A DNA stretch of 20,699 bases from a virus. Each line of letters opens with the position of its first letter. The first letter of the stretch is position 1. The DNA lies in IMG/VR virus record IMGVR_UViG_3300026094_000048, positions 1-20,699 of that record; one strand, given 5' to 3'. The notes beneath the pieces are model-generated. The model had not been told where the DNA came from and searched no databases. It worked only from the letters and a program-made list of their open reading frames with translations. Made by a program: the position numbers and the translations under genes. Below, piece after piece: positions 1 through 18,791 of the stretch.

Positions 1-3000
1 ATAGCCTTCCCCTTGCGGATTTCTTATGAGATCAGCTATGTCTTGGGCAGATGTTTTTCTAGATTCTATATTAGGCACTGTTGATTTATTTCTTACCCAA
101 TAGTAGAATCTAGTTGAAAAAGTTTGAGATGCTTTATTGTATACTCTCTTAGACACATATGCACTATCTCCGTACCTTGTAGTGCCAGTAATGCCTCTAG
201 TAAATCCTTGCTCGGTTCCTGAAAGTCTATCCCATTCACTAGGAAGTATATCTGCTTCTACCCACTCAAAGACATCAACCGAATTTTGGTCTGAGAAAAG
301 CGTGCTCCAGTTATTAGCGCTATAGATAATTTCGCTTTGGTACGGATTGAGAAATTTGGTATTAGATAAATCCCACCAAATCTCTCCTACCTGTGGTTCC
401 CCCCAGCTATTTGTTCTGTCTATCTGAACTTCTGTGCCTTCTGTGTAAACAGCTGGGTCGTAGTATAGTTTATAAGAAATTTCCTGCTCTGCAATTCCTG
501 CAATTTTTCCTTGTAGAGGATCTATATAATCAAGATATTGTATTAGTTCGTTCTTTCTAGTATCGTATAGCGAAACTTTTTTAATCTTGCTAACATCTAC
601 TGTAGGTTTAATTCTTCTTAATTCCTTCCATAACGAGCTGTTTTGTTTTTTCCTATAATCAACTACAGTGCCTTTAGCATTATCTAGGTATTCAAGTTGC
701 GGCATGCCTATGTAGATATGATTTCCTACTACGCTAAGATTTCTACCAAAATATTTTACTCCGCTGTCGTCGAAATCAATGGTTTGAGCATACAACAACG
801 AGTTGTCAAATAATTCATAAATTTGAACTATGCCTGCATCGTCCTCATAGTCCCTAAATTTTGTCAAGTTTCTATCAAATATAGTTTCGCCGCTATCAAA
901 AATAGCTTCGGAAAAACTATCACCGTTTCTAGATGTAACTGCTAGTGTTTTAGTACTAAAATCTACTCTGTAACCAAATTGTTCATTTTTATCATCATTA
1001 GAACTAGTAAGAATTTGACTCAACACAAATTCACCATCGACTTGTTTGTAAACAAATACTGCGCCTTGATTAAGGCCGTTTGTGTCATCTAGGGGAGCGC
1101 CTACCGCAAGGAACAAACCGTCATTGGTTATGCTTATAGAATTTCCAAAATCATCAGTGTTGCTAGGAGCTTGAATTTCTTGGTCTCTAACATACAAACC
1201 GTTTTGGTTTCTATATATTACTAGCCTATTTGGCTGTGTGTCGTTGTAAAATGAGCTTGTTACAAGGATTTCTCCATTTTCAGAAACATCAAAATCTCTT
1301 GAAAACTCAGTTAAGTCGCCAATATCTGATACGGTAGAAAAATCTTCTAAAACAAGTCCTTGGCTATTTGGTACAAATCCTAGGTAATCAATCGGGTCTT
1401 CAATGAAATTCCAATCATCGTTATCAAATTCCCCAGGTATCAGGTTGGTTTTTGCTCTATACAAGCCACGCGAGACATTGTCGTTTGCTTCGTCGAGGAA
1501 TACAACATTATCTCTAAAATATTGCCGTTGAATATCAAATTCACCTGTATAATCTTTATCGCGGCCTATTTCCCAACTATATAGGTTTTCATTTTCTTCT
1601 CCGTTTTTAATTACAAAGATTTTGCCAAAATTTTCACTGTCGCTGTTTCCTGCAGCCTTAACGAAAAGTTTTGTTAAGTTGTTAATATCAGAAAACTTAA
1701 CGTCTTCCCCTAATCTGATATTATTATCTCTTTGTGGTACAATAAAGTCATCGATTTTTGTATACTGCCCGCTGCCTGTTCTTGTAAAGACAGTAAATAG
1801 GCCTTCATTTTCAAAAGAACTCTCGGCACCTGAAGAATCTGCTGGAATTCTGTATACTTGTCTCCAGTCATTGTTATTGTCTGCGGGAATATTTGGTTCT
1901 CTAGGTGCGCCACTAATTATTTCTTCTTGATAAAACCAGTATTCAGGCGTAGCTATGATGTCTGTGTCAGGTAAATCTTCGTTATCTCTTGGATCGTCAG
2001 ACACCTTTATTGTGATTCTATTTTTATCCTGCAGTTCTATATTGTCGCCGTCTCTAGTTTCAAATACTATTAATTTTCCTACTCCATCCGGATCATAACC
2101 AAGACTCCTTGACTCAATTTGTCCGAATACTCTGTTTACACCAAAGTCTGTATTTGATCCATCACCTAAAAACTGAATCTCTCTATTTTCACCAAACAGT
2201 CTGCCTAGTGCAAAAACACCGTCTACATTCTTCACATAGATACGAGCATTAAGAGAATCAAATTTTTGATAGAAAGCAACTTCTGCTGTGCCTTCGTTTG
2301 TAATATCCTGTACTGTGATTCCAACTTTAGGTTCAATAGGAGAACCATCAGAGAAGAATTTAGTAATTCTATAATCAATATATCCATCCCATAGGTCGAA
2401 AATTGTATGGGTTCTATTCAATTCATCTGTGGTAATGCCAATCTGTTCTGTGTCTATAAAACTACCTGTTGCACTGTTAGGCAAGTCATTGTAAAAAACC
2501 TCAATGTTTTCACTTGGGGATAATTGGTCAGTAAGAGGTTTTGGAGCTCTCAGGACATATAGATTTGATTCAAAGACACCAGTTTCTCCGTCTGGGCCAG
2601 GAAGGCCTTCGTAGGTAAGGTTAGCAATTTCTGTATATCTTGTATCAAAGCTGGAAAATTCATCTGATTCAAAATCGAGCACATTAAAATATGGTATGTC
2701 TAGTTCAGCGTCGCCTTGGGGTGTCAGATTGGTATAAACCAGTCCTCTTCCGTTATCGCTTATTGTGTTAAATACATCGTATTCTGCCTGTACATCTATT
2801 TTCCAAAATCCGCCCCAGTATTCTTCTATGTCTGGAATTTGACCTTGTGCGGCTTCTAATTCATATTCACCAACAAATTCGCCTATACCAGTTGTCAATG
2901 AACCTTGAAGATCAAATTCACCATTTTGATCTGTAACATAAATTGTAATCTCGCTGGCTTCATTGTAAACGTATGCTACAGTTCCCGAAGCTGATTGTGT

Positions 3001-6000
3001 TTCAACAATCTGACCAACATCTGGAATATTTGTTGCTGATTCTACGTAAAGAATGCTGTCAATTTTTTCTGCTATTACGTGATTTTTTGTAATAAAATCA
3101 GAATCTAGTTGAGAGATTGTTCCTAGGAACGGCTCTACTGTTTCTAAATCTTGATTGTCCTGATATGCATAGGAAAGTGTATTCCATTTTAGTTCAACTG
3201 TGTCGCCTACACTAGATCCGTCGTACATATCTCTCGGCGCTCTGACAAGGAAATGATCGGCAGACTGATTTTCGAAAGGATAATTACCTGCAAGAAGAAC
3301 CGGTATATTCGAATTGCTATCAGCAACTCCAAGTTCTATAAGTATCTGTAAAACTGATTCGTAAGAACCTAATTCGACTGCTTCTTGAGCTTTTGCAATA
3401 TCTGTTTCAGATTTCCAAAAATTATCGTTGAGTTGAACAATGCTGCCTAGTTCATAGTTTCTGCCTGGACTAAAAGTTCCTGAAAATCTACTTTTTACAT
3501 TTGATGCTTTAGGCGACCCTACTGCAACAAAGTTTCCATCTTGTGATACTGCAACTGAAGATCCAAAGCCTGCACCAGGACTTGCAATTTCATCATCTAT
3601 TTCAAGAGTAGTTGCTAATTTATATGTGCCAGAATTATTTGCTCTTGTATAAATGTAAACCTTGCCGTTTTCATTATCAGGATCACCTACTGCTAATACT
3701 GTATTGTTTCTATTTGAATCTATGCTGGATCCAAAACTAGCGCTTTCGCTAAAATCTGAAGTTATTGTTTCGTGTTCAGAGAACGCCATGTTTCTGTCTA
3801 TAACTCGCCAGGCATCGCTTGTATTATCAATCCAAAGTCGATCTAATCCTTGATTTATAATTTTGGTATTTTGGCAAACCTCAGTTGCATTAGTAAATCT
3901 GCTAGAAACTAATCTAACAATTTTACCCTTGAGATCGCCAACATCTGGTTGTTCCTGAGACTCTGAACGCACTTTAATGATGTTGTTTTCAATGCTGTCG
4001 ATCTGATACAATCCGTCTATTGGCGACACATTGTAGATGCCTATAATTTCTTCGTTGTCAAGTTGCCAATCAGTTGTTGATAATGACAAGTCGTATCCGA
4101 TTTCGCTAGACTCAATTGCTTCTACTTCTAGGTCAGTTCTTGCAACCGTATAGATATTCCAAGTATTATTTTCGTTACCTACCCATATTTTGCTGCCAAA
4201 TTTCAAATCAAATAAATCTAGATTTAATATATCTCTATATTCATCTAGCGTAAAATCTACATCATCGGGGTTTACATACCCACTATTTTTAACAAATGTA
4301 TCTGTTACAGATTTTTCTGGAAACGGTGCATGATTGTAATCTTCAGGTTTTAGATAGGTTTCGTTAGGCAAAATCCTATAAACAAGTTCAGTTCCTGTAC
4401 TTGCTCTGTCAGTTAGTTTTATAGGCTGCGGTGAGGCCCTAAATTGAGATTCATCTAGTATGTATTCTACTTCTTTGAATCCGTCTGCCGCTCCATATTG
4501 TCCTGATTTAATTGCCCATTCTTCGTAAAATTCTAGGCTGTCTCTGTTGGCACTGCCTAGTGCATCGAACAGCTTTGTAAAAGCATTAGCAGTGCCTTTG
4601 TCTTGTATAAATCCTTGATAGAACTTGTATTGACTTACTTCGTCATTTATAATATTTGCAAGATAGTCTCTATTTTGATACCCGATAAGATGTTGTGCAA
4701 ACTTTTGTTGTTCTGAATCGAAATTATCAGTATCGAGGTCATAAAAATCTGCAAATTGATTTGTTTTGTATTCAAAGTTAGGTATTATTCCGCTTTCTGG
4801 TCTTTCTGACAATTGCGACCAATCTTGTGAATCAAATACTGCTGTTCCTGTCACAGGAGTTCTTGCAGCATAAAAGAACTCTTTGTAACGCACTAGGTCG
4901 CCTATCACGTAGTCACGCCATGGTTGCCAGTCTTCAATTTTTACTTCGTCAAATATAAAGCCTGGAATATTTACCGAACCGTCCCATTCACCTGTTCGGT
5001 ATCCAAGAACTCTTATTCTTTCTTGTCTATAACCTGCAGGCTGGTCGTATATAATGTCACCAAACTGTGTTCTATTATCTATAATAAGAGCATGTTCTTT
5101 TTGAACAAATGACACTCTAACACCAAAAATTCCATCTTCAGTAGCTTTTGGTTTAATTTCAAATTCACCAGGTTCTTCTCTTGTTAAACTAACAAATTCA
5201 GGTTGGAATTTTTTGCCGTCGACTTTAAGCAAACTGTATCCATAAATTGTATCGTAGATATCTCCTACAATAGAATTTTGAGATTCAACTTTAAGTTTGA
5301 ATGCCGCAGGAGACAGCGAAATTACTGATCCTTTGCTCCAGTTTTGGGTTGTCCAGAATAGATATTCTTTTGTAGCCGTAATCCAATCCGCTACTAGACC
5401 AGTATCGCCTTCGTAATAGTCAAATACAAATCCCTGAGTTTCTAACCAATTGCCATAACCTAGAATAAAATCAACTACGTCTTGAATATCTTTCAACACA
5501 GTGCCATAAGGCAGAATTTCTGTAGTTGGCAGATATTCTTGTCGTATTGCTGCTTCTCTTCCTCCTTCGACAGGGAGTCTAGGAAGTTTTGTAAATTTGT
5601 CTTCGTCGAATGTATTGCCAGATACATGCGAAGTAGTAACTCTATAAAATGAATTTCTAAAATTTACTATTGTGCCGCTAGTGAGTGTTCTGTTCGATAC
5701 CCAGTCTGTTGATGTTGCTGAGATTCCGCCAACGCTAACTATTGGATCTTGATTGCGTTTTCTAGGAGGTGTGTATTCAAAATATGGCTGTTGCTCATTA
5801 TATCCTCTAATAACAAAACCGTTGCCTTGCTTTTCTACAATTACACCGCTATAGTACACCGTTTTGATCGGGGTGCTTGTGTTTAGAAATATTTGATAGT
5901 TTTCCTCTGGCACAAAAACATTACCTTCATTAAACGGTGTTCTTGAATCTAATATAAGTTTAAATTTTTCTTTCGTAGTAAACCCTGCTAGTTTTGCTCC

Positions 6001-9000
6001 TATTTGATTATCTATATTTCTTAGGTTATTTTTATAGGTCTCATAGATACGAGTAACACTCGAACTTACATAATCTCTAATGTAGTTTACAAAACCTGCT
6101 GTAAATATTCTTTCGTTGTCCTGTATTGAATTAGGGAACACAATATCCTGTAGTCTTATCTGTCTATTAGGTTTTTCATAGATTATATCATCAACTAATC
6201 CTCTCTGTTGACGTGTTCTATCAAAACAAACACTCATAGTTCTAGCAGGTTGGTTTACAAACAGCGAACCCAGTATTGCAAACGGATATTCTGAACTTTT
6301 TCTCCAAGCAGTTTCTACCGGAGACCAATCACCATAAACAAAGTCTTGAGACAGGTCTGATGTGTTGTAATCTTTAATATAATTGCTCTGTAGAGGTGAC
6401 AACAAGTTGCCTCTATCGTCTACAGGCAAATGAGCCACTAGACCAGGTCTTTTATATTTTTCAAATTGTATGAAGTTTTTACCCGGCTCTCTTACAATAC
6501 CTTTTTCTATGTCTTCCCACATTAATAGGTTATTGCTGGTATATGGTGCTTCGCCGTATTGTTCATTCCACCATGAAGGTTTAATAGAATATCCGAGCAT
6601 TTCCCATGGGTGAGAATGTGGACGATCTGTATCATAGGCGGCTTGATATACCTGTCTCCATCTTCCTTTTACTTTTTGATTATTGAAATTTGAAGAACCG
6701 GTATAATTCCAAGTAAAAGAATTATTTCTGTTGTAGCTTGTATTTTCTGTGTAGTCTTCGTTTACTAACCTTGTCCATTGAACAAAGTCGCTTATCATAG
6801 TCTGGTCGATTTGATCTCTTGTAATGCCAGTATTTCTATAAACGCTAGGAATATAATCTAGTACGTCGAACAGGTTAGAATCGTATTCAACTTTAATGTT
6901 GTTGTATATTCTTTTTTCTAGTTCAAGAATTAGATCGTCTCTAAAATCGTCAAATGCCAAGGTCAAACTTCCGTCGTGGCCTTGTATTACTGTGCGGGGT
7001 TCGATATAGGTATCATCAACAAACTTTTGGGGAATAAACTTCGGATATAATCCAAGCTTGGTAGGCGTAGCTGGAACAAAGCTACCGTTTGTGCTTTCAA
7101 ATTCATCAATAACTAATTCGTCGCCTCTGTCTATCGCCGCAAAAAGCACAACGAACCCTTCGTCATTAAAGATATAATCTTTGCTGTGGATTAATTGAAC
7201 ACCGTTCAAGTACACCAGTACAGATCTTTCACTTAGATTTTCTAAATTAAAGCTGCCACTAAGTCCGAAAAACTCCTGGTCTGCGGAGTCAATTTCGAAT
7301 ACAGTTGTGTTTTTAGCGCCTGTCGCTACCATATCGGAAAAATAGAAAGGATCTGTATTAGGCTTTTCCTTTGTGATTTGACGCATTACTTGGTCAAAAT
7401 GCTTGTTTATAGGGCCGTCGAATGCTAGATCAAATGATGTCCGTAGGAAATTTCTTTTGAACTTGCCATATTCTTGTCTTGCAAACTGCAGTGATTTTAC
7501 AAGGTTTGCATCTTCGTCTAGTAAATGATAAAGCGCAAGATTAAGAGGTGCAGAATGTTTTACTATTCTTCTTCCAAATTGAGATACTTGTCCTTGGTCT
7601 CTGAGATTAGACAACCCTGGATATTTTCCTTCAAAATCCTCTATATCTTCAATTATAGTCCCTACATGATCATTGATTTCGCCTAACGTAAGGCGTTGGA
7701 CATCATCGTTGAGAGGATTTCTTTCGAGATTTATTGCTATTTCATATTTTCCGTTTTCATTTTTTACAGCGTTTGATCTTGTTTTTATTTGTATAACATC
7801 GCCGTCTTCTAGGTTTGGCAGCAACACTTCTGACTGGTTTTGAGCATTGGTTATTACTGAGTAGTCAACCACTGGTTGTTTCAGTTTATTGTTTACAAAA
7901 ACCTTTATAACTAGATCTTCTAATTCTGCACTGTTATCGTATACATCTATAGGATAATTCGACTGGTCACTTTCGGCTACAAATTGTCTTATAACGTATT
8001 GTTGACTGAGTTGTTCCGCTTTTTTCCAACCGTTTACATATTGGAAAGTCTCTCTGTCTTGAAATTGTTTAAGATAGCCAATTCCTGTGCTTTCAGTAAG
8101 CACTATCGATTTGTCAGGACAAAATGTAATAGCATCAGAGGAAAGGTTAAAATCAAAAACAATATCTCCAACGTTCTGTATACTGCGATACGCAAGAGGA
8201 AATCCTAGCTCTGGATCATTGAAGCCTTGACTTCTACTATATGAAAAAATCTTGGTTCCTGCAAAGCTGGATGATTGATAAACTTCTGGATCAGCTAGAC
8301 TGTTACCTTCGCAATCAAAAACATCAAAAAGAGGTTCTTGGTTTACACTATTTTTCTGTTGACCAAGTTCCCATTCTACTCCGGTATAATACAAAATTTT
8401 ACCGCTAAAAGTAGCGCCCTGTTTACAAAGCACTGTTTCGTTACTAAAGGGTTGTGCGTCTTCTGCTTCTCTCAGTGCAATTTGTCTTTGACCTTTAAAT
8501 AAAATAAATTCTACTGTATAGATTTTTCCAGAAACTCTTACGTCAGTGTCTGCTGTAAACAGAATTCTCATTCCGTTTGTTAGATCTACACCGTCAATAT
8601 TATAGCCCTCTGAGCCTTCAATGGTTGAAAATATATCTTTTGTAAAATCATCTACTAAGTCTACCGATTGTTTAGCACCTGTTCCAAAATTAAACAGTTT
8701 TACTCCTGCTTCGAACTCAATAATTGGTCTAGCTGCTCTAGCGTTTTGATCTAAACTACTTTCAACACCAGTAATTTCAGCTGCTTTATCAATTACATCA
8801 CGATGAAACCAGCGATTATATTTGCTCCAAAGGTTTCCGTCTCTGCTTGATCGATTGATTGTGAAATAATCTTTATCTCTTGGAAAGCCTATCGCTCTAG
8901 AATATGGTACAGTATCGAATCCTTCTGTATCAAAATCGATCTGAGTGTCTTCCACAAAAGCAGAAGAAATATTGAGGTCATCTTCAGATATTAAAGTAAT

Positions 9001-10125
9001 ACTAGAGCCAACACCTTCAACATACCATGAACCTTGTTGATATTTGGCTTGAGCAGTTGTTCCTTGAAAATAGATCTTCATGCCGTTAGACAAATCAAAT
9101 CCATTTCCTGTGGTATAACTTCTTTTTCCTATTATGTCTTGTTCTACATCAATAAAGGATGCTTCTTCTTCGTTATACACTCTTATCAGACCGCCTGCAT
9201 TTATGTCGGCGTCGCTCACATAGTATATAAAATTAGGAGAGTCAGGAAATAGTGTTAATTCAACTATGCCGTTTTCTACACCCTGTTGCGATACTTCATT
9301 TACAAGGTTTAGTGAAGTATCTATGAACCATAAATCTCTATCTTCTTCGAAAATTTCGCCCGATCTATGAGTTGCAGTAGCAGTATAAATTTGACTTTCA
9401 TATACAACTGTTTCACCTTCTAGGAATCTTGTATTTGCAGACCACGCTGCAGCAGTAACTCGTGTGCTTCTAAAACTTATAGGAATACCAGGCGAATCTA
9501 TTTCAAACCTATAAGTAGTTCCTCTATAAAGTGTAAGTTCTGGATTCTGAGTTAATCCGTCAGGAGAAAATACAAATGCATAATTATCAATGTTATCCTC
9601 GGAAGTAACCGAATAGGTAGATTGTATCTGAATGTTATCGCCAGATACTGGCACAGGCTGAGGACCGTTTGGTAACCAATAGTATTCCCTAAAGTTTACA
9701 AATTTATCCCAATCAATATGTGGGTTCCAACTGTAGTACTCTTGTTGATTAAGTTTTGAATGATCTTTTACAGCTCCGTCAAGGTTGTTTATTTGATTAA
9801 TATAATCGTTATAATCGCCATAAAACTGTACATTGTCAAGATCGTCTTTTACAACAGCAGCCGGCTCTAGTTGATAATCTTCTCTATCTTTGCTTACGTC
9901 GCCGATATAGAAATCATCAGGAGAATAACCCGGAGCTGTCTGTCTTCCTATATATCCGTTAAGTTTTTCTGTGACGCCAGGTTGTATTAATTGGTCAAAC
10001 GTGCTTGACAAAAATTTATTGTTTGCCTGAGTTCTAAAATATCTGGGAAGATGTCTAGAACTTCTGCGCCTATCGTCAGATCCTCCTGGTAGAGGAAACT
10101 CTCTTTGATCCTTATTAAAAGCCAT
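1..10125 (-). CDS. Giant virion structural protein, probable baseplate-attached host-recognition protein (3' end outside window)
   Basis: I read this frame codon by codon from the ATG at 10125 to base 1 and found no stop: at least 3375 residues, C-terminus missing. It starts inside the gp6 stop (TAATG), with a GGAGGG ribosome site at 10137-10142. The N-terminus (about residues 24-62; 'RYFRTQANNKFLSS', 'QLIQPGVTEKLNGYIGR') resembles the opening of large structural proteins of marine T4-like phages. Modules seen: a beta segment 'LTLYRGTTYRFEID' (197-210); CBM5/12-like modules (228-270, 1474-1515, 1733-1772); hairpin modules (736-780, 968-1008, 'VYLNGVQL'); FG-GAP-like repeats (2116-2235 and 2796-3155). 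The position after gp6 is where gp7 (T4) or gpI/gpH (P2) sits, so a composite docking and fibre protein is inferred. No catalytic motif was seen. The role as a virion protein is fairly sure; the receptor-binding role is inference. Confidence 0.85.
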   Translation of the reverse strand, partial: MAFNKDQREFPLPGGSDDRRRSSRHLPRYFRTQANNKFLSSTFDQLIQPGVTEKLNGYIGRQTAPGYSPDDFYIGDVSKDREDYQLEPAAVVKDDLDNVQFYGDYNDYINQINNLDGAVKDHSKLNQQEYYSWNPHIDWDKFVNFREYYWLPNGPQPVPVSGDNIQIQSTYSVTSEDNIDNYAFVFSPDGLTQNPELTLYRGTTYRFEIDSPGIPISFRSTRVTAAAWSANTRFLEGETVVYESQIYTATATHRSGEIFEEDRDLWFIDTSLNLVNEVSQQGVENGIVELTLFPDSPNFIYYVSDADINAGGLIRVYNEEEASFIDVEQDIIGKRSYTTGNGFDLSNGMKIYFQGTTAQAKYQQGSWYVEGVGSSITLISEDDLNISSAFVEDTQIDFDTEGFDTVPYSRAIGFPRDKDYFTINRSSRDGNLWSKYNRWFHRDVIDKAAEITGVESSLDQNARAARPIIEFEAGVKLFNFGTGAKQSVDLVDDFTKDIFSTIEGSEGYNIDGVDLTNGMRILFTADTDVRVSGKIYTVEFILFKGQRQIALREAEDAQPFSNETVLCKQGATFSGKILYYTGVEWELGQQKNSVNQEPLFDVFDCEGNSLADPEVYQSSSFAGTKIFSYSRSQGFNDPELGFPLAYRSIQNVGDIVFDFNLSSDAITFCPDKSIVLTESTGIGYLKQFQDRETFQYVNGWKKAEQLSQQYVIRQFVAESDQSNYPIDVYDNSAELEDLVIKVFVNNKLKQPVVDYSVITNAQNQSEVLLPNLEDGDVIQIKTRSNAVKNENGKYEIAINLERNPLNDDVQRLTLGEINDHVGTIIEDIEDFEGKYPGLSNLRDQGQVSQFGRRIVKHSAPLNLALYHLLDEDANLVKSLQFARQEYGKFKRNFLRTSFDLAFDGPINKHFDQVMRQITKEKPNTDPFYFSDMVATGAKNTTVFEIDSADQEFFGLSGSFNLENLSERSVLVYLNGVQLIHSKDYIFNDEGFVVLFAAIDRGDELVIDEFESTNGSFVPATPTKLGLYPKFIPQKFVDDTYIEPRTVIQGHDGSLTLAFDDFRDDLILELEKRIYNNIKVEYDSNLFDVLDYIPSVYRNTGITRDQIDQTMISDFVQWTRLVNEDYTENTSYNRNNSFTWNYTGSSNFNNQKVKGRWRQVYQAAYDTDRPHSHPWEMLGYSIKPSWWNEQYGEAPYTSNNLLMWEDIEKGIVREPGKNFIQFEKYKRPGLVAHLPVDDRGNLLSPLQSNYIKDYNTSDLSQDFVYGDWSPVETAWRKSSEYPFAILGSLFVNQPARTMSVCFDRTRQQRGLVDDIIYEKPNRQIRLQDIVFPNSIQDNERIFTAGFVNYIRDYVSSSVTRIYETYKNNLRNIDNQIGAKLAGFTTKEKFKLILDSRTPFNEGNVFVPEENYQIFLNTSTPIKTVYYSGVIVEKQGNGFVIRGYNEQQPYFEYTPPRKRNQDPIVSVGGISATSTDWVSNRTLTSGTIVNFRNSFYRVTTSHVSGNTFDEDKFTKLPRLPVEGGREAAIRQEYLPTTEILPYGTVLKDIQDVVDFILGYGNWLETQGFVFDYYEGDTGLVADWITATKEYLFWTTQNWSKGSVISLSPAAFKLKVESQNSIVGDIYDTIYGYSLLKVDGKKFQPEFVSLTREEPGEFEIKPKATEDGIFGVRVSFVQKEHALIIDNRTQFGDIIYDQPAGYRQERIRVLGYRTGEWDGSVNIPGFIFDEVKIEDWQPWRDYVIGDLVRYKEFFYAARTPVTGTAVFDSQDWSQLSERPESGIIPNFEYKTNQFADFYDLDTDNFDSEQQKFAQHLIGYQNRDYLANIINDEVSQYKFYQGFIQDKGTANAFTKLFDALGSANRDSLEFYEEWAIKSGQYGAADGFKEVEYILDESQFRASPQPIKLTDRASTGTELVYRILPNETYLKPEDYNHAPFPEKSVTDTFVKNSGYVNPDDVDFTLDEYRDILNLDLFDLKFGSKIWVGNENNTWNIYTVARTDLEVEAIESSEIGYDLSLSTTDWQLDNEEIIGIYNVSPIDGLYQIDSIENNIIKVRSESQEQPDVGDLKGKIVRLVSSRFTNATEVCQNTKIINQGLDRLWIDNTSDAWRVIDRNMAFSEHETITSDFSESASFGSSIDSNRNNTVLAVGDPDNENGKVYIYTRANNSGTYKLATTLEIDDEIASPGAGFGSSVAVSQDGNFVAVGSPKASNVKSRFSGTFSPGRNYELGSIVQLNDNFWKSETDIAKAQEAVELGSYESVLQILIELGVADSNSNIPVLLAGNYPFENQSADHFLVRAPRDMYDGSSVGDTVELKWNTLSYAYQDNQDLETVEPFLGTISQLDSDFITKNHVIAEKIDSILYVESATNIPDVGQIVETQSASGTVAYVYNEASEITIYVTDQNGEFDLQGSLTTGIGEFVGEYELEAAQGQIPDIEEYWGGFWKIDVQAEYDVFNTISDNGRGLVYTNLTPQGDAELDIPYFNVLDFESDEFSSFDTRYTEIANLTYEGLPGPDGETGVFESNLYVLRAPKPLTDQLSPSENIEVFYNDLPNSATGSFIDTEQIGITTDELNRTHTIFDLWDGYIDYRITKFFSDGSPIEPKVGITVQDITNEGTAEVAFYQKFDSLNARIYVKNVDGVFALGRLFGENREIQFLGDGSNTDFGVNRVFGQIESRSLGYDPDGVGKLIVFETRDGDNIELQDKNRITIKVSDDPRDNEDLPDTDIIATPEYWFYQEEIISGAPREPNIPADNNNDWRQVYRIPADSSGAESSFENEGLFTVFTRTGSGQYTKIDDFIVPQRDNNIRLGEDVKFSDINNLTKLFVKAAGNSDSENFGKIFVIKNGEENENLYSWEIGRDKDYTGEFDIQRQYFRDNVVFLDEANDNVSRGLYRAKTNLIPGEFDNDDWNFIEDPIDYLGFVPNSQGLVLEDFSTVSDIGDLTEFSRDFDVSENGEILVTSSFYNDTQPNRLVIYRNQNGLYVRDQEIQAPSNTDDFGNSISITNDGLFLAVGAPLDDTNGLNQGAVFVYKQVDGEFVLSQILTSSNDDKNEQFGYRVDFSTKTLAVTSRNGDSFSEAIFDSGETIFDRNLTKFRDYEDDAGIVQIYELFDNSLLYAQTIDFDDSGVKYFGRNLSVVGNHIYIGMPQLEYLDNAKGTVVDYRKKQNSSLWKELRRIKPTVDVSKIKKVSLYDTRKNELIQYLDYIDPLQGKIAGIAEQEISYKLYYDPAVYTEGTEVQIDRTNSWGEPQVGEIWWDLSNTKFLNPYQSEIIYSANNWSTLFSDQNSVDVFEWVEADILPSEWDRLSGTEQGFTRGITGTTRYGDSAYVSKRVYNKASQTFSTRFYYWVRNKSTVPNIESRKTSAQDIADLIRNPQGEGY

Positions 10126-13100
10126 TAGTAGCTATACCCTCCACTAGGTGGACTGCTTGGTGAACTCGGTGGTGGCGAAGTGCTCGGTGGTGGCGAAGTG
10201 CTCGGTGGCGAACTGCTTGGAGGCACTGAAATATTGGAACTAGTTGCCATGCTGCTTGGCGAACTAGTAAGCGGCGTTGAATTACTATTTTGATAATTCA
10301 TACTGGTTATGCCTATATTAGTTGATGTAGTCTGTCTTACAACAGCCCCGTCTGCTTTTAATCTAGACGCTGTCAATTCGTCTATAATATCTATATCATC
10401 CACAGTTGCTCCGCTTATAAAAATTTCGTCTGATTCAGATTTAACTTCAAAAAGAGAACCAAATACCTGATTCTCTTGAACCGGAACAATTACAAACGTT
10501 GCTAGATCAGGTGTCAGTTCGTTTATGACATAAGCAGCAAGTTCTGAAAAGTAAAAAGTATCACCAAAGTCCCAATTTTCTAGGGCAAAATAACGATTTA
10601 TTGATCTAATCACTCCAGACTTCAATTGGTTATCATTTATTACAAGATCTGGATTCTTAACAATTTTAAACCTTGCCTGAAGATCTCTGTCAGCTTTTGC
10701 GCCAAATAACACTTTGTACTTAACAGGATGATAGATAATTTCATCGCTAACTGATTTTATTTTGTTCAACTCTGTACCATAACTAACAAAGAGTGAATCA
10801 CTGCTCGGTGGTAAGGGCTCTTGTTCTATAGCATTTTGCAGATATTGTCTATATTGCGTGTCGTATCCTCTAGTCAACAGATATGTGTCAATTATATTGC
10901 TTGCGCTGGGATCTATTCGAGCATTTTGATCTGCAGTATGAAAATACTGAAATTTTAGATTATCTCTTCCTATTTTTGCTCTGTAATTGGAAGATATTGA
11001 AAATCTAGCAGTGTCTCTGTTAAGTATCTTAAACACGTCCTGCTCTCTAAAATAAAAAAGACTTTGATCTTCGAACTTGCTTGGTATAACCTCTGATTCT
11101 CTTTCAAAAATATGCACTCCTATTTCTTCAGGAGTCACATATATAAAATCATTAACTCCGTTTGTAGAAGTTCGCAGTTCGAGAAACACCAATTTGTCTA
11201 TAGGGTTTTGTTCTTCTTGCACTATTTGTTTGAAGATATCAGGATCATCTACAATACCATCATTGTCGTCATCAAAGAATGAGATTTCAATTTTCTTACT
11301 ATCCACATATCCTTGAGTGTCTCGATATTCTTCAACAATTTTCCAGTCAAATGTTCTGTTAAAAGGCAGAGTAGCATCGGGTTTTGTATTGATGCTAAGA
11401 ACTGATATTCTGTCTTTTTCGGTTTTACCTGTTTTATTATTAAAAAATTTATCAGAACTGTCATAGAAAAAACGTATTTCTTTATCACTTTCAAACACAT
11501 ATCTCAGTGCTCGATAGGTAACAGTATATCGCTCACCGTCTGTTTCAAATAAGACTAGCCAACTTGCGTCTAAATTTTGGCCTGTGGTATCGCCTGTTTT
11601 ACCAGTAGAGAAATCGCTCGACGTGTCTAGGTTATTCTGTGAAATAATTCTCCATTCGCTGTCGCTTTGAGAATATCTAAGACCAAATGTTCTAAACGAA
11701 AAAATCTGATCAATTGTCTGAGCTTCTACTTCGGTAGTAAGTGCCGTAGGCAACGCTGTTCTAATTTCGACTAGTTTTGCTCCTGTAGGAATAATATCGT
11801 TAAACACAATAGGGCCGATGCCGTTATCGGCAACTTCGGTACCGTCGTTTGAAATACTTACAACTTTGGTCCATAGATATTCCCTAGAACCAAGGTGTGA
11901 TGCGGGTCCTGCCATTAGAGTACCGTCAGGCATAAAATGAAAGCCTTCTGGAGGCTCAAATTTCAGAAGACTGTTAGGCTTAACAAATTTCATGTTAGAG
12001 CCAGTGAATGAACTGACTTTGACTGCAACACCGTTTGCGTTTTCAAATAGGCCTGTTGATTGATTTGTGTCTGCTGTAGATTGCTGCCATATACTGCCCA
12101 AATCTTCTACAAACAATTGAGGGAATTGGTCTAGATAGTAATTTTTCAGTTTGCTATCCGCTAGTATAGGCTCAACAGTGTTTACAACTTCGCCTTCAAT
12201 GTCTGTCAAGTTTTCAAATGTGAAACTGGTTTTAGGCATTATAAAATCTTTATATAATGCGCCGTCTGTTCCGAATAGATTGGTGTTAGAATATTTGCCT
12301 GTGGCATCTATTAAATCAAAATATCTTGATATTCCTGAACTTGTCCTATTAACTGATTTTACTTTTACAATCTCTTGACTAATTCCTAAAGGCGCTACTT
12401 GATAGTCTTCCCCTGTTACCATTCTATTTTGAGTGTAATAGGTAGACGGAGCGTTTGTTCTTATGCTTTCGTTTGTTTCTGATACTGTGCCATTGTCCAC
12501 TGTGTTTTTAAGGCCTAGAGTAATTGTGAGACGTTCTCTTGTGTTCCTTTTAGATACATATGGTATTGTAATAGAAACTGATCTCATAGAGTCTGGATTA
12601 ATTACTAACCTCTGGTTTACAGAAGTTCTATAATAAATCCTAAACGCGCCTTGTGGAAGATTACCAAAAGTACCATCCGCAAAAATCAAATTAATTCTGT
12701 CTTCAATTCTAGTCAGTACCGAGTAGATATTTCTTTCTCGACGTGCTAGGCTGTTGTAAATTACGTTATTGCCTTCTACAGCATCAACCTGTGTCCATAA
12801 CTGAGTTTCATTGCCGTTGCTGTCTAGTGAATATAACCAAACATCCGAATTATTGATATTTTTTGCGTCGATTGCCACGGTTTGGTTAGTGCTAGGGTTT
12901 GATACAGAAAAATTACCTACGTCAAGAGAGCCTTGTCTAAAATGACAGAAATAACCAGTGTTAGTGCTTGCTGGTCCTTGGCCATCATCTCTAAATAAGA
13001 AAGCAAGACTGTTATCAGGCAATGGAGGTTCTTCTATTATGTCTTGATCTGTAATATCCGTAGAAGTCACTTCAAATGTAACAGTTCTGCCATCTACGGT

Positions 13101-13709
13101 TTTTGTATAGGCATAAACAGGAACATCTTCTTCTGTGCCGTTTAATCTATACTGCTCTGTGGGCACACCATTAATATTTTCTTGTTTTGCTGGATTACCT
13201 ATCTTACCGTTTTCAGGAAGAGCAGCATTTAGTATTCTCTGAAATTGTTCATTCCAATTTGAATTAGCTGGGTCATTCCAATTTATGTTTTGGCCAGCTA
13301 GATTAATATTATTTGAATCTATAACAGATTCTGTTGTAGAAACCGAATCTACTTTAAGCAAACCGTTTGCTGCTTGATTTCGCTTAGGATTGTAACTTAA
13401 CAGCCTTGCAAGCCTAAGAACTGATTCTCTTCTTTCTGCTAATTCAAGATAGTTTTCTCTAGCATTAAGGTCGATCCTAAACGCTAAGTTTTGACCTAGG
13501 AATGCAATCATGTCAATCAAAGCAAGATATTCCGATGATTCGATGTAATCATTAAAATCTTCGGGGTAATTCTCACGAAGATAATTGATCATTGTTCTGC
13601 GTAGATTATCGAAATCGTATGACTGAAATTCTGCGTTTCTAAAAGATTGATAAACTCTTTTCCAGTCTTCAGATGCTAACAGTCTATTTTGTCTATCTGT
13701 AGATGACAT
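10125..13709 (-). CDS. 6: Baseplate wedge protein gp6, long form
   Basis: gp6 forms the inner ring of the baseplate that links wedges around the hub and transmits the contraction signal. The first 110 residues carry the family signature ('DWKRVYQSFRNAEF', 'YPEDFNDYIESSEY', 'DLNARENYLELAERR'). The 1194 residues are far longer than T4 gp6 (about 660 from memory), as in marine T4-like phages. Residues 813-824 form an EF-hand-type calcium loop (DDDNDGIVDDPD). The last roughly 54 residues are a Pro/Ser-rich tail with (PPPSTS) repeats. The start at 13709 has AGAGGAA at 13716-13722 and a late-promoter-like motif just upstream. The stop TAA shares a base with the next start. It lies 53 bases downstream of gp25, the usual neighbour. 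The identity is strong; the roles of the tail and loop are unknown. Confidence 0.92.
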   Translation of the reverse strand: MSSTDRQNRLLASEDWKRVYQSFRNAEFQSYDFDNLRRTMINYLRENYPEDFNDYIESSEYLALIDMIAFLGQNLAFRIDLNARENYLELAERRESVLRLARLLSYNPKRNQAANGLLKVDSVSTTESVIDSNNINLAGQNINWNDPANSNWNEQFQRILNAALPENGKIGNPAKQENINGVPTEQYRLNGTEEDVPVYAYTKTVDGRTVTFEVTSTDITDQDIIEEPPLPDNSLAFLFRDDGQGPASTNTGYFCHFRQGSLDVGNFSVSNPSTNQTVAIDAKNINNSDVWLYSLDSNGNETQLWTQVDAVEGNNVIYNSLARRERNIYSVLTRIEDRINLIFADGTFGNLPQGAFRIYYRTSVNQRLVINPDSMRSVSITIPYVSKRNTRERLTITLGLKNTVDNGTVSETNESIRTNAPSTYYTQNRMVTGEDYQVAPLGISQEIVKVKSVNRTSSGISRYFDLIDATGKYSNTNLFGTDGALYKDFIMPKTSFTFENLTDIEGEVVNTVEPILADSKLKNYYLDQFPQLFVEDLGSIWQQSTADTNQSTGLFENANGVAVKVSSFTGSNMKFVKPNSLLKFEPPEGFHFMPDGTLMAGPASHLGSREYLWTKVVSISNDGTEVADNGIGPIVFNDIIPTGAKLVEIRTALPTALTTEVEAQTIDQIFSFRTFGLRYSQSDSEWRIISQNNLDTSSDFSTGKTGDTTGQNLDASWLVLFETDGERYTVTYRALRYVFESDKEIRFFYDSSDKFFNNKTGKTEKDRISVLSINTKPDATLPFNRTFDWKIVEEYRDTQGYVDSKKIEISFFDDDNDGIVDDPDIFKQIVQEEQNPIDKLVFLELRTSTNGVNDFIYVTPEEIGVHIFERESEVIPSKFEDQSLFYFREQDVFKILNRDTARFSISSNYRAKIGRDNLKFQYFHTADQNARIDPSASNIIDTYLLTRGYDTQYRQYLQNAIEQEPLPPSSDSLFVSYGTELNKIKSVSDEIIYHPVKYKVLFGAKADRDLQARFKIVKNPDLVINDNQLKSGVIRSINRYFALENWDFGDTFYFSELAAYVINELTPDLATFVIVPVQENQVFGSLFEVKSESDEIFISGATVDDIDIIDELTASRLKADGAVVRQTTSTNIGITSMNYQNSNSTPLTSSPSSMATSSNISVPPSSSPPSTSPPPSTSPPPSSPSSPPSGGYSY
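10137..10142 (-). promoter_or_regulatory. Ribosome binding site of the giant structural gene
   Basis: The minus strand reads GGAGGG, 11 bases upstream of the ATG at 10125 and inside the last codons of gp6. The strong site together with the TAATG overlap supports this start and suggests both independent initiation and coupling to gp6 translation. Confidence 0.6.
10165..10212. repeat. 18-bp tandem repeat encoding Pro/Ser-rich tail of gp6
   Basis: The unit ctcggtggtggcgaagtg occurs exactly twice (10165-10182, 10183-10200), followed by a partial third copy with a 3-base deletion (10201-10212). The repeat stays in frame and encodes a Pro-Pro-Pro-Ser-Thr-Ser type hexapeptide on the minus strand. 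Looser copies flank it on both sides. It looks like a slippage-prone, length-variable linker. Confidence 0.85.
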
Positions 13710-13762: not shown

Positions 13763-14206
13763 TTACACAAGTCCGGCATCTTGGTCGAATTTTAGACGAA
13801 GCGACTCCGAGATGCTATAAGGCAGATAAGTGAGCACGCATTCTATCTGTATGCCTTTGTCGAATCGATCAACAGTTATTTCTTCTACATTTACTCGAGG
13901 ATCGTAGTTGATTATTGTGGATACATTTTTTATAATCAAATCTCGCAACTGGTCTGTAAGTTGTTCGTACAACAAATCCCAAATAATAGTGCCAAAAGTA
14001 GGATCATTGAGTTTTTCACCCTGTCTAATATGAAAATGGTTTATAATATCTTGCTTGATAAGCGCAATGTCATACAAAACAAAACTTGGATTATCAGGAT
14101 TTACTGTTGAAATTCCTCTATAAGCGCGACTTTCAGGAACTGCCTGAGCTTTTTTGTTGGAAGGTACTGTGATCTGTTTATAGATATTTTTTTCTAGCGT
14201 GCTCAT
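13763..14206 (-). CDS. 25: Baseplate wedge protein gp25
   Basis: gp25 is a small conserved wedge subunit of contractile tails (lysozyme-like GPW/gp25 fold, not enzymatic) that nucleates sheath assembly and binds gp6. The 147 residues fit the family. The middle carries the expected run: 'IINHFHIRQGEKLNDPTFGT' (about residues 53-72), then a helix 'IIWDLLYEQLTDQLRDLI', then 'YDPRVNVEEITVD', the usual strand pattern before the C-terminal sheet. The ATG at 14206 is 18 bases after the gp5 stop. Its leader has only a weak ribosome site (AAGG) and the sequence GGTAAATACC, a poor match to the late-promoter motif. The order gp5, gp25, gp6 is the standard one. The identity is strong. Confidence 0.93.
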   Translation of the reverse strand: MSTLEKNIYKQITVPSNKKAQAVPESRAYRGISTVNPDNPSFVLYDIALIKQDIINHFHIRQGEKLNDPTFGTIIWDLLYEQLTDQLRDLIIKNVSTIINYDPRVNVEEITVDRFDKGIQIECVLTYLPYSISESLRLKFDQDAGLV

Positions 14207-14224: not shown

Positions 14225-15823
14225 TTATAAGCCTCTTCTAAAAGTATCAGCAGTAGGAATATACTCACCAGATTCAGGAGGCTCTTGAGTTATACCCGAA
14301 CCAGATGTTGCTGGTTTTTTAACATCAGTTTCTTCTGGGGTAAAATTTAAAGGTGCAAGATTTTCATGCTGGAACCAAGGTTCGGTTTGAGGCACTCTGC
14401 GCATAATTGTTTCAACTGTGCTGTCTCCTGCCGGCAACTGCCATGTAGTCAATGGCTCAGCAGCTTCTGCTTCTTCTGCTGTTTTTGCAGTAGGCCCGTT
14501 CATTCTTAATTTTGAGCCAGTTGTTATAGTTTGATTTCCGCCGCTGTTAATATCTGTATCAGTTTCTGCTGTAAACAGATTATTCTTGCTGGATACCTGT
14601 GTGTCTTTTGGAGTTGTAATTTTTATTCCCTGTTCTACAGAAAGATCAAATTTTCCAGTTGTGGTAATTTTGTTGTCTTTGCCTACAATCAACTGGAAAT
14701 TTTCCACGCTTTCTGCTGCAATATTTTTATTTGCTTTTAGGTTTATGTCTCTGCCTGCTTCAATATTAATATCTCTGTCTGCTTGAAAATTTAGATCATT
14801 TTCCGTATGTACACTTACAGAGTCTTGTGCATAGATATCTATCTTGCCGTTTGCTGTGAGCTCTATCCAAGTAGTGCCCTTGGAGTTTCCGATATAGATT
14901 AGATCCTCTGAATTGTGCATCAAAATCTGATGACCTGTGCGAGTTTTTAGACGCAGCATTTCGTTGTGTGGTATTGTTACATCACCGTCAGTTTCTTCTT
15001 TTTTCCTGTCTGCGTATTCTGACGGACCTTCTGCTGCTGAAGTTTTTCTAAGCAGTGTAGCATCCCCGTCGTCCATTACTAGCGAACTTCCTCCTAGTCT
15101 GTTATGGTATATCTGTGTAGAGCCATATTGTACCTTTGGAGCATCCTGTCTTCTATCATATGGTCCGGGAGTTGAAATTCCAAACACAGTAGAAGGTGTT
15201 TCTCGCCTTGCACTGGAAGTAGTAAGTCCTCTAGTTTCGTCTTCGGTTAATCCGCGTTGGTTTAAGGAATCTAAGTAGTCTGTGTTCACAGGTTTGAAAA
15301 ATTGCGTGGCATTTTTGTTGCCTGTGTTTTGTTCAGCAACAGACGTCTTATTGTATTCACCTACTGGCAGTTTCTGATCCTGCTGTTCACTGGTATATGT
15401 TGTGACTGCATCTCCTGCGGGCGTCATAAAGTTAGTGCCCTTCTGAGGCACACAACCAATCCAAAAGCCTTCGCCTCCTTCTGCAAAAATTACAAGAACA
15501 AGGCTTCCTACATCGGGAGGAACAAACCACATACCATATGATTTTTGACTAAATTGATGACCAGCGTTTTGTTGTATGCCATCCAAGGGTGTAAGTCCGT
15601 AAAAAGGAGACAGATATCTCACTTTGTAAAATGTACCTTCTTCGTTTGGCTTGTTACCTGAACTAGATCTGTCCAACAATTGTACTTCCAGCCCGCCAAG
15701 GTAATCTGCATCCAGATGATTTCTAACAATCGCAATACAAGGATTTTGTGGAGGCGTCCTGTTTACAAGTTTAGCTGAACTTCTTTTTGATTCGCCGGTA
15801 TATCTATTGATATGATCTTTCAT
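14225..15823 (-). CDS. 5: Baseplate hub/central spike protein gp5, lysozyme-less
   Basis: This is the central spike at the tail tip that punctures the outer membrane. Residues 28-135 form the gp5/VgrG OB-fold ('PCIAIVRNHLDADYLGGLEV', 'GMWFVPPDVGSLVLVIFAEG', 'GFWIGCVP'). Residues 136-285 are low-complexity linker. Residues 290-440 are a beta-helix of short D/N repeats ('DRDINIEAGRDINLKANKNI'). Residues 475-487 carry the conserved 'RVPQTEPWFQHE' tail motif, followed by a Pro/Glu/Ser-rich end. T4 gp5 has a lysozyme domain between OB-fold and helix; none is visible here. The ATG at 15823 follows the upstream stop by 3 bases and has no Shine-Dalgarno sequence, so translation is probably coupled to the upstream gene. 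The identity is strong. Confidence 0.93.
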   Translation of the reverse strand: MKDHINRYTGESKRSSAKLVNRTPPQNPCIAIVRNHLDADYLGGLEVQLLDRSSSGNKPNEEGTFYKVRYLSPFYGLTPLDGIQQNAGHQFSQKSYGMWFVPPDVGSLVLVIFAEGGEGFWIGCVPQKGTNFMTPAGDAVTTYTSEQQDQKLPVGEYNKTSVAEQNTGNKNATQFFKPVNTDYLDSLNQRGLTEDETRGLTTSSARRETPSTVFGISTPGPYDRRQDAPKVQYGSTQIYHNRLGGSSLVMDDGDATLLRKTSAAEGPSEYADRKKEETDGDVTIPHNEMLRLKTRTGHQILMHNSEDLIYIGNSKGTTWIELTANGKIDIYAQDSVSVHTENDLNFQADRDINIEAGRDINLKANKNIAAESVENFQLIVGKDNKITTTGKFDLSVEQGIKITTPKDTQVSSKNNLFTAETDTDINSGGNQTITTGSKLRMNGPTAKTAEEAEAAEPLTTWQLPAGDSTVETIMRRVPQTEPWFQHENLAPLNFTPEETDVKKPATSGSGITQEPPESGEYIPTADTFRRGL

Positions 15824-18488: not shown

Positions 18489-18791
18489 TCAAACTCCTAG
18501 CAACTCTTGTAATTTTGACCCTTTCGGCAAGAATATAGTTACTCCAGCTTCAAAATCATACACAGGATCTTTGAGAACATTCATATTTCTTTGCGCAAAT
18601 ACCCACCATAATTTATGATTACCATACAGATCAAAAGCTAACAGGTCTGGTCTGTAAGTATACTGTGGCTCTATTTCATATGGAATATCATCTGACTCTG
18701 CGGGCACCGGTCTGATTCTCAATATGTCAAGATATTCGTTTCCTTGTATTTTGGTATTTTTCCAAGGACTTCCGGAATTATATTTTGCCAT
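18489..18791 (-). CDS. 53: Baseplate wedge protein gp53 (LysM-like)
   Basis: gp53 is a small wedge component that helps join wedges around the hub; in other contractile systems the matching protein is a LysM-domain subunit. The 100 residues contain the typical wording: 'NEYLDILRIRPVPAES' (about residues 18-33), 'YTYRPDLLAFDLYGNHKLWW' (45-64), and a short C-terminal LysM-like end 'YDFEAGVTIFLPKGSKLQEL'. T4 gp53 is about twice as long, but the short form is usual in marine T4-like phages. Its ATG shares a base with the gp48 stop (TAATG) and no ribosome site is evident, so translation is probably coupled to gp48. The identity is fairly strong by wording and position. Confidence 0.85.
   Translation of the reverse strand: MAKYNSGSPWKNTKIQGNEYLDILRIRPVPAESDDIPYEIEPQYTYRPDLLAFDLYGNHKLWWVFAQRNMNVLKDPVYDFEAGVTIFLPKGSKLQELLGV

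Follow-up and report, generated by a model that had tools for sequence, protein, structure and literature searches.

How can a phage protein carry the blades of an integrin-type propeller in two groups that lie hundreds of residues apart? The question is raised by IMG/VR record IMGVR_UViG_3300026094_000048, one whole virus contig of 20.7 kb from an uncultured T4-like phage, which is the window analyzed here. Its minus strand holds a giant open reading frame (ORF; window 1-10125) in which the first-pass annotation had noticed two FG-GAP-like segments followed by five more. All seven are found at the residues it quoted. The annotation had proposed one closed seven-bladed propeller with a long insertion between blades 2 and 3, and the computational analysis described here supports the single split propeller but moves the insertion site to the interior of blade 2. 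The fold itself is known; what is novel is the variant, with its split blade 2 and nested insertion.

The propeller ring and its split blade

In viral contigs, scans identified 224 loci that contain the beginning of the propeller together with its downstream flank, and 110 of them remained at 90% identity. Using an alignment of these 110 relatives, residues 2060-3181 were modeled with AlphaFold2 at a predicted local distance difference test score (pLDDT) of 91.5 and a predicted TM-score (pTM) of 0.79. The model consists of one preceding strand followed by seven blades of four strands each, arranged in a single closed ring from which the insertion loops out; neither two separate propellers nor a fold other than a propeller was obtained. 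A structural aligner placed integrin alpha chains at Z-scores of 31.9-35.3 over ~350-370 residues at 3 Å, with the alphaI-bearing alphaM, alphaX, and alphaL ranking first. The best of these, alphaM (Z 35.3, 350 residues, 3.0 Å), aligns model residues 54-1108 with the whole integrin ring. Closure of the ring is seen at model residues 57-63, the strand ahead of blade 1, with model residue 54 aligned to integrin residue 1. Because this N-terminal strand closes blade 7 beside the chain exit, the ring can branch off the parent protein. Foldseek again returned the integrin family, but with low TM-scores because the insertion makes up half of the model. A profile built from insertion-free relatives reaches integrin alpha-4, -M, -X, and -6 by sequence, with E-values of 1.2e-4 to 0.01. 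Very probably, the region forms one closed ring of seven blades whose major insertion, named INS, lies in blade 2.

The blades begin at FGSSIDS (residue 2131), FGSSVAV (2187), LGEDVKF (2805), FSRDFDV (2941), FGNSISI (2993), FGYRVDF (3050), and FGRNLSV (3126). Pfam FG-GAP_2 (PF14312) matches the window protein at 53.4 bits (E 2.8e-14) against a curated cut-off of 23, and in scans of single stretches the cut-off was passed only by the stretch of blades 1-2 and by blade 5. A leave-one-blade-out profile, for which shuffled sequences gave at most 0.3 bits across 67.5 thousand residues, recovered blades 1, 2, and 5, which scored 12-18 bits; blade 4 scored just 2.0 bits. The same profile failed to recover blades 3, 6, and 7, a result that speaks against the ring; because the sequence profile misses them, these three blades rest on the structure model. 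The expectation that a profile search would confirm every blade was therefore borne out for three blades, weakly for a fourth, and not for the remaining three.

The interruption measures 570 residues (2205-2774) and is flanked by strands 1-2 of blade 2 on one side and strands 3-4 on the other. Since the latter pair (residues 2775-2795) follows the insertion, the insertion sits within blade 2, between its second and third strands. Two levels of nesting are visible. The profile of a CBM5/12-like module breaks off at column 47 and restarts at column 47 beyond INS, 496 residues away, which places INS inside the CBM-like module and the module inside blade 2. In some relatives, the blade-2 loop holds the module of ~65-70 residues alone, without INS; it is akin to the CBM5/12-like module in the loop that joins blades 3 and 4 (E 6.6e-13 by hhalign).

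Insertion states in relatives and the decorated face

The long insertion is present in 96 of the 110 non-redundant relatives and absent from 14. The insertion-free relatives, 475-480 amino acids, carry the ring sequence uninterrupted, FG-GAP_2 matches 12 of the 14, and in the barest forms the blade-2 loop that joins strand 2 to strand 3 is 7 residues long. A tree of the flanking segments, built by a quick method and with long outgroup branches, places the insertion-free forms as two groups inside insertion-bearing lineages; the INS state has therefore changed at least twice, by gain or loss. Nested domain insertion can thus be seen in several natural states within one family: a bare ring, a ring with a small module, and a ring with a module and a 500-residue domain.

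Decoration of the ring is one-sided. Across the 110 relatives, the loops between strands 1-2 and 3-4 are near-constant and no longer than 12 residues, and all large insertions, up to 787 residues, fall in the strand 2-3 and 4-1 loops, at the FG-GAP/Cage end of the blades. Several relatives (L046 and L147 among them) have extra long loops on the same face, which reach 787 residues in blade 2, 152 residues in blade 3, and 78 residues between blades 1 and 2.

This placement invites comparison with integrins, in which the Ca2+ loops lie opposite the FG-GAP/Cage end and the alphaI domain, which binds the ligand, emerges from between blades 2 and 3 (PMC3192720). The alphaI-bearing alphaM, alphaX, and alphaL (PDB 7usm, 3k71, and 5e6s) have the same seven-bladed FG-GAP ring with an N-terminal closing strand, and a large domain that leaves the FG-GAP/Cage face beside the blade 2/3 border (PMC3192720). 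They differ in the exact site, as the window insertion falls within blade 2, in its strand 2-3 loop, whereas alphaI lies between blades 2 and 3, and the window protein, unlike an integrin, is a phage virion protein. The likeness is one of fold and placement, because the decorated loops are at the Cage end, as is the alphaI domain. It does not extend to strict integrin-type membership as defined by Chouhan et al. (PMC3192720). Residues 2060-3181 contain no DxDxDG, the Ca2+ loop between strands 1 and 2 of integrin blades 5-7, and their strand 1-2 loops are 2-5 residues long. The Cage motif, which the definition places in every blade, is complete (FG, P, and G) in only four, blades 1, 2, 5, and 7, with G or P missing from blades 3, 4, and 6. 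Animal integrins and phage baseplate-locus proteins have both taken up large insertions on this one face of the FG-GAP propeller.

Among phages, the closest parallels are smaller. The uncultured Caudovirales phage FG-GAP repeat protein A0A6J5S3H5 in BFVD and cyanophage S-TIM5 H6WG31 have the same predicted propeller fold, but at 400-470 residues in total they are too small for a 500-residue insertion. The Pfam FG-GAP_2 entry describes single repeats and is silent on the insertion, and a search of the open-access literature with limited terms found nothing on FG-GAP in phage baseplates.

The propeller cassette and its proposed role

The propeller is a cassette between two conserved segments, upstream (UP) and downstream (CF), of a giant virion protein encoded at a T4-like baseplate-wedge locus. 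The phrog_10938 profile matches the giant ORF in three stretches (E 0, 1037 bits), and relatives of its product are ~5000 amino acids long. The phrog_10938 proteins of the jumbo phages RaK2, PBECO4, PA5oct, and Atu_ph07 resemble the window protein over residues 1-1990 and 3165-3375, and these homologues share its position after gp6; according to its record annotation, the PA5oct homologue was detected in the phage by mass spectrometry. Where the window protein has its propeller, RaK2 and PA5oct have ~110 residues between UP and CF, and Atu_ph07 has more than 1000 residues of other sequence without an FG-GAP signal; the slot therefore accepts different domains. In Atu_ph07 (L249), it lies at about locus 18300-21470, and another protein of this phage, A0A2L0UZX4, is predicted to be an FG-GAP-like propeller. 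With limited search terms, nothing was found on the giant protein in the RaK2 literature, and a search of prokaryote genomes for relatives, as a clue to the host, found none.

The INS domain is an internal tandem duplication (hhalign between halves, E 1.1e-13), and when modeled separately it reaches a pLDDT of 93.8 and a pTM of 0.89. No PDB chain matched it below E 0.001, and no vWA domain, the MIDAS-bearing fold of integrin alphaI, is among the matches listed for its model. The best structural alignment was to gp7 of phage KP1 (Z 8.0, 72 residues, 2.2 Å, 24% identity). T4 gp7 aligned to the INS barrel through gp7 residues ~760-845 (Z 7.4-7.6), and EF-Tu-type barrels came just below (Z 6.9). 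Profiles of both INS repeats also align to gp7 residues 760-841, at E 0.003-0.005. The likeness is suggestive of a shared baseplate module but does not prove one.

The CBM5/12 assignment of the module between blades 3 and 4 comes from relative L214, where CBM_5_12 scores 27.0 bits against a Pfam cut-off of 26.2; the window copy is linked to it through the family profile. The giant protein has several CBM5/12-like modules along its length, at residues 228-260, 1733-1783, 2207-2252/2749-2773 (the split one), and 2855-2934. The module at 228-260 gives a weak score of 9 bits against the family profile, yet it contains Pfam's best CBM_5_12 stretch.

The first-pass annotation raised the idea that a split propeller on a phage tail protein would be an unusual receptor-binding head; from the features above we propose the following putative role. 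The undecorated face, together with the joined chain ends, would hold the ring to the baseplate wedge, while the decorated FG-GAP/Cage face would point outward and bind something. The bound target would most likely be a glycan of the host envelope, contacted during adsorption; a glycan is a fair guess because CBM5/12-like modules are present. We lean neither toward nor away from this full explanation, with its outward, binding role. Several observations weigh against it: resemblance to CBM5/12 at the sequence level would not by itself prove sugar binding; INS evolves no faster than the ring (39-40% identity, versus 44% for the propeller strands); and its retention in most relatives is unlike that of typical receptor tips. 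Given this conservation and the baseplate-wedge locus, a structural role is also possible.

Such a role would make the split propeller an assembly or docking platform within the baseplate, with INS and the CBM-like modules touching wedge, pin, or fiber proteins rather than the host. We find this plausible but somewhat doubtful. The gene occupies the place of gp7, directly after gp25 and gp6, and in PA5oct a gp10-like protein is encoded shortly downstream of the giant-protein homologue. The resemblance of the INS barrel to gp7 and the absence of hypervariability in INS also fit a docking platform, although the gp7 match is borderline, with EF-Tu-type barrels nearly equal to it. Against docking, INS is dispensable, being missing from two separate lineages, RaK2 and PA5oct do without any propeller, and the CBM-like modules suggest surface binding. 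A third proposal takes the integrin parallel further: an integrin-like sensor would have arisen by parallel evolution, and a ligand-binding domain on the Cage face would signal host contact through the propeller to the wedge, helping to trigger tail contraction. We regard this as improbable.

A different architecture, with two separate propellers or repeats that fail to close, is suggested by the long sequence gap between blades 2 and 3 and by the low Foldseek scores of a model that the insertion dominates. It is rejected as highly improbable, given exactly seven four-stranded blades in one model, the full integrin ring aligned to them, and the contiguous ring of the insertion-free relatives. 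A chimeric contig or frameshift artefact fusing unrelated sequences, conceivable for a possibly fragmentary 20.7-kb contig from a public collection, is practically excluded by the identical order UP-blades-INS-blades-CF in open frames of many contigs (96 non-redundant sequences).

Whether for binding or for docking, the family offers defined modules with which to probe the part that little-known giant baseplate proteins play in host attachment. Because relatives occur with and without it, the extra domain is a natural module for testing such a role.

Feature coordinates and the neighboring baseplate operon

The giant gene lies at the end of a minus-strand, T4-like baseplate operon in the order gp53-like, gp5-like, gp25-like, gp6-like, giant ORF (Table 1). 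The arrangement is like that of T4, gp53...gp5-gp25/gp6-[giant gene], with the giant gene directly after gp6, but proteins of the window family are 3-5 times longer than T4 gp7. Whole-length orthology to T4 gp7 appears unlikely, because hhalign of all pieces, and of the C-terminal part of the relatives, against a nine-sequence gp7 profile matched only the INS barrel; two other short gp7 matches, in the N-terminal part of the giant protein, were judged to be chance.

Table 1. Features of the giant ORF and of the baseplate operon in the window
Feature	Residues	Window position	Strand	Basis or remark
Giant ORF, phrog_10938 virion structural protein	at least 3375 aa	1..10125	-	3' end off contig; directly after gp6
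CBM5/12-like module	228-260	9346-9444	-	family profile / Pfam
Conserved upstream segment UP	1600-1990	4156..5328	-	common to RaK2/PA5oct/Atu_ph07-type jumbo phages
CBM5/12-like module	1733-1783	4777-4929	-	family profile
Seven-bladed integrin-type beta-propeller with insertions	2116-3171	613..3780	-	AlphaFold2 pLDDT 91.5; VIA Z 35.3 to integrin alphaM
N-terminal strand	2116-2122	3760..3780	-	strand in model; outer strand closing blade 7 by analogy with integrins
Blade 1	2131-2175	3601..3735	-	model and sequence
Blade 2, strands 1-2	2187-2204	3514..3567	-	model and sequence
CBM5/12-like module, first half	2207-2252	3370..3507	-	c2 profile columns 2-47, 28.2 bits; hhalign E 9.5e-21 to relatives' unsplit module
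Nested insertion INS (496 residues)	2253-2748	1882..3369	-	in 96/110 non-redundant relatives
INS repeat 1	2251-2469	2719..3375	-	hhalign of halves
INS repeat 2	2478-2699	2029..2694	-	barrel 2580-2676 resembles T4-type gp7 residues 760-845
CBM5/12-like module, second half	2749-2773	1807..1881	-	c2 profile columns 47-71, 7.2 bits; hhalign E 1.3e-6
Blade 2, strands 3-4	2775-2795	1741..1803	-	model
Blade 3	2805-2853	1567..1713	-	model
CBM5/12-like module, loop between blades 3 and 4	2855-2934	1324..1563	-	family profile; Pfam CBM_5_12 in relative L214
Blade 4	2938-2985	1171..1314	-	model; weak by sequence
Blade 5	2993-3039	1009..1149	-	model and sequence
Blade 6	3050-3116	778..978	-	model; strand 2-3 loop of 33 residues
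Blade 7, strands 1-3	3126-3158	652..750	-	model
Conserved downstream segment CF	3169-3375	1..621	-	
gp6-like baseplate wedge protein		10125..13709	-	
gp25-like baseplate wedge protein		13763..14206	-	
gp5-like baseplate hub protein		14225..15823	-	
gp53-like baseplate wedge protein		18489..18791	-	

On the strand opposite the baseplate operon is a gene for a gp55-like late sigma factor. Immediately ahead of the giant gene, the last part of the gp6-like protein is a tail rich in Pro and Ser, PPSTSPPPSTSPPPSSPSSPP (window 10125-10250, minus strand).

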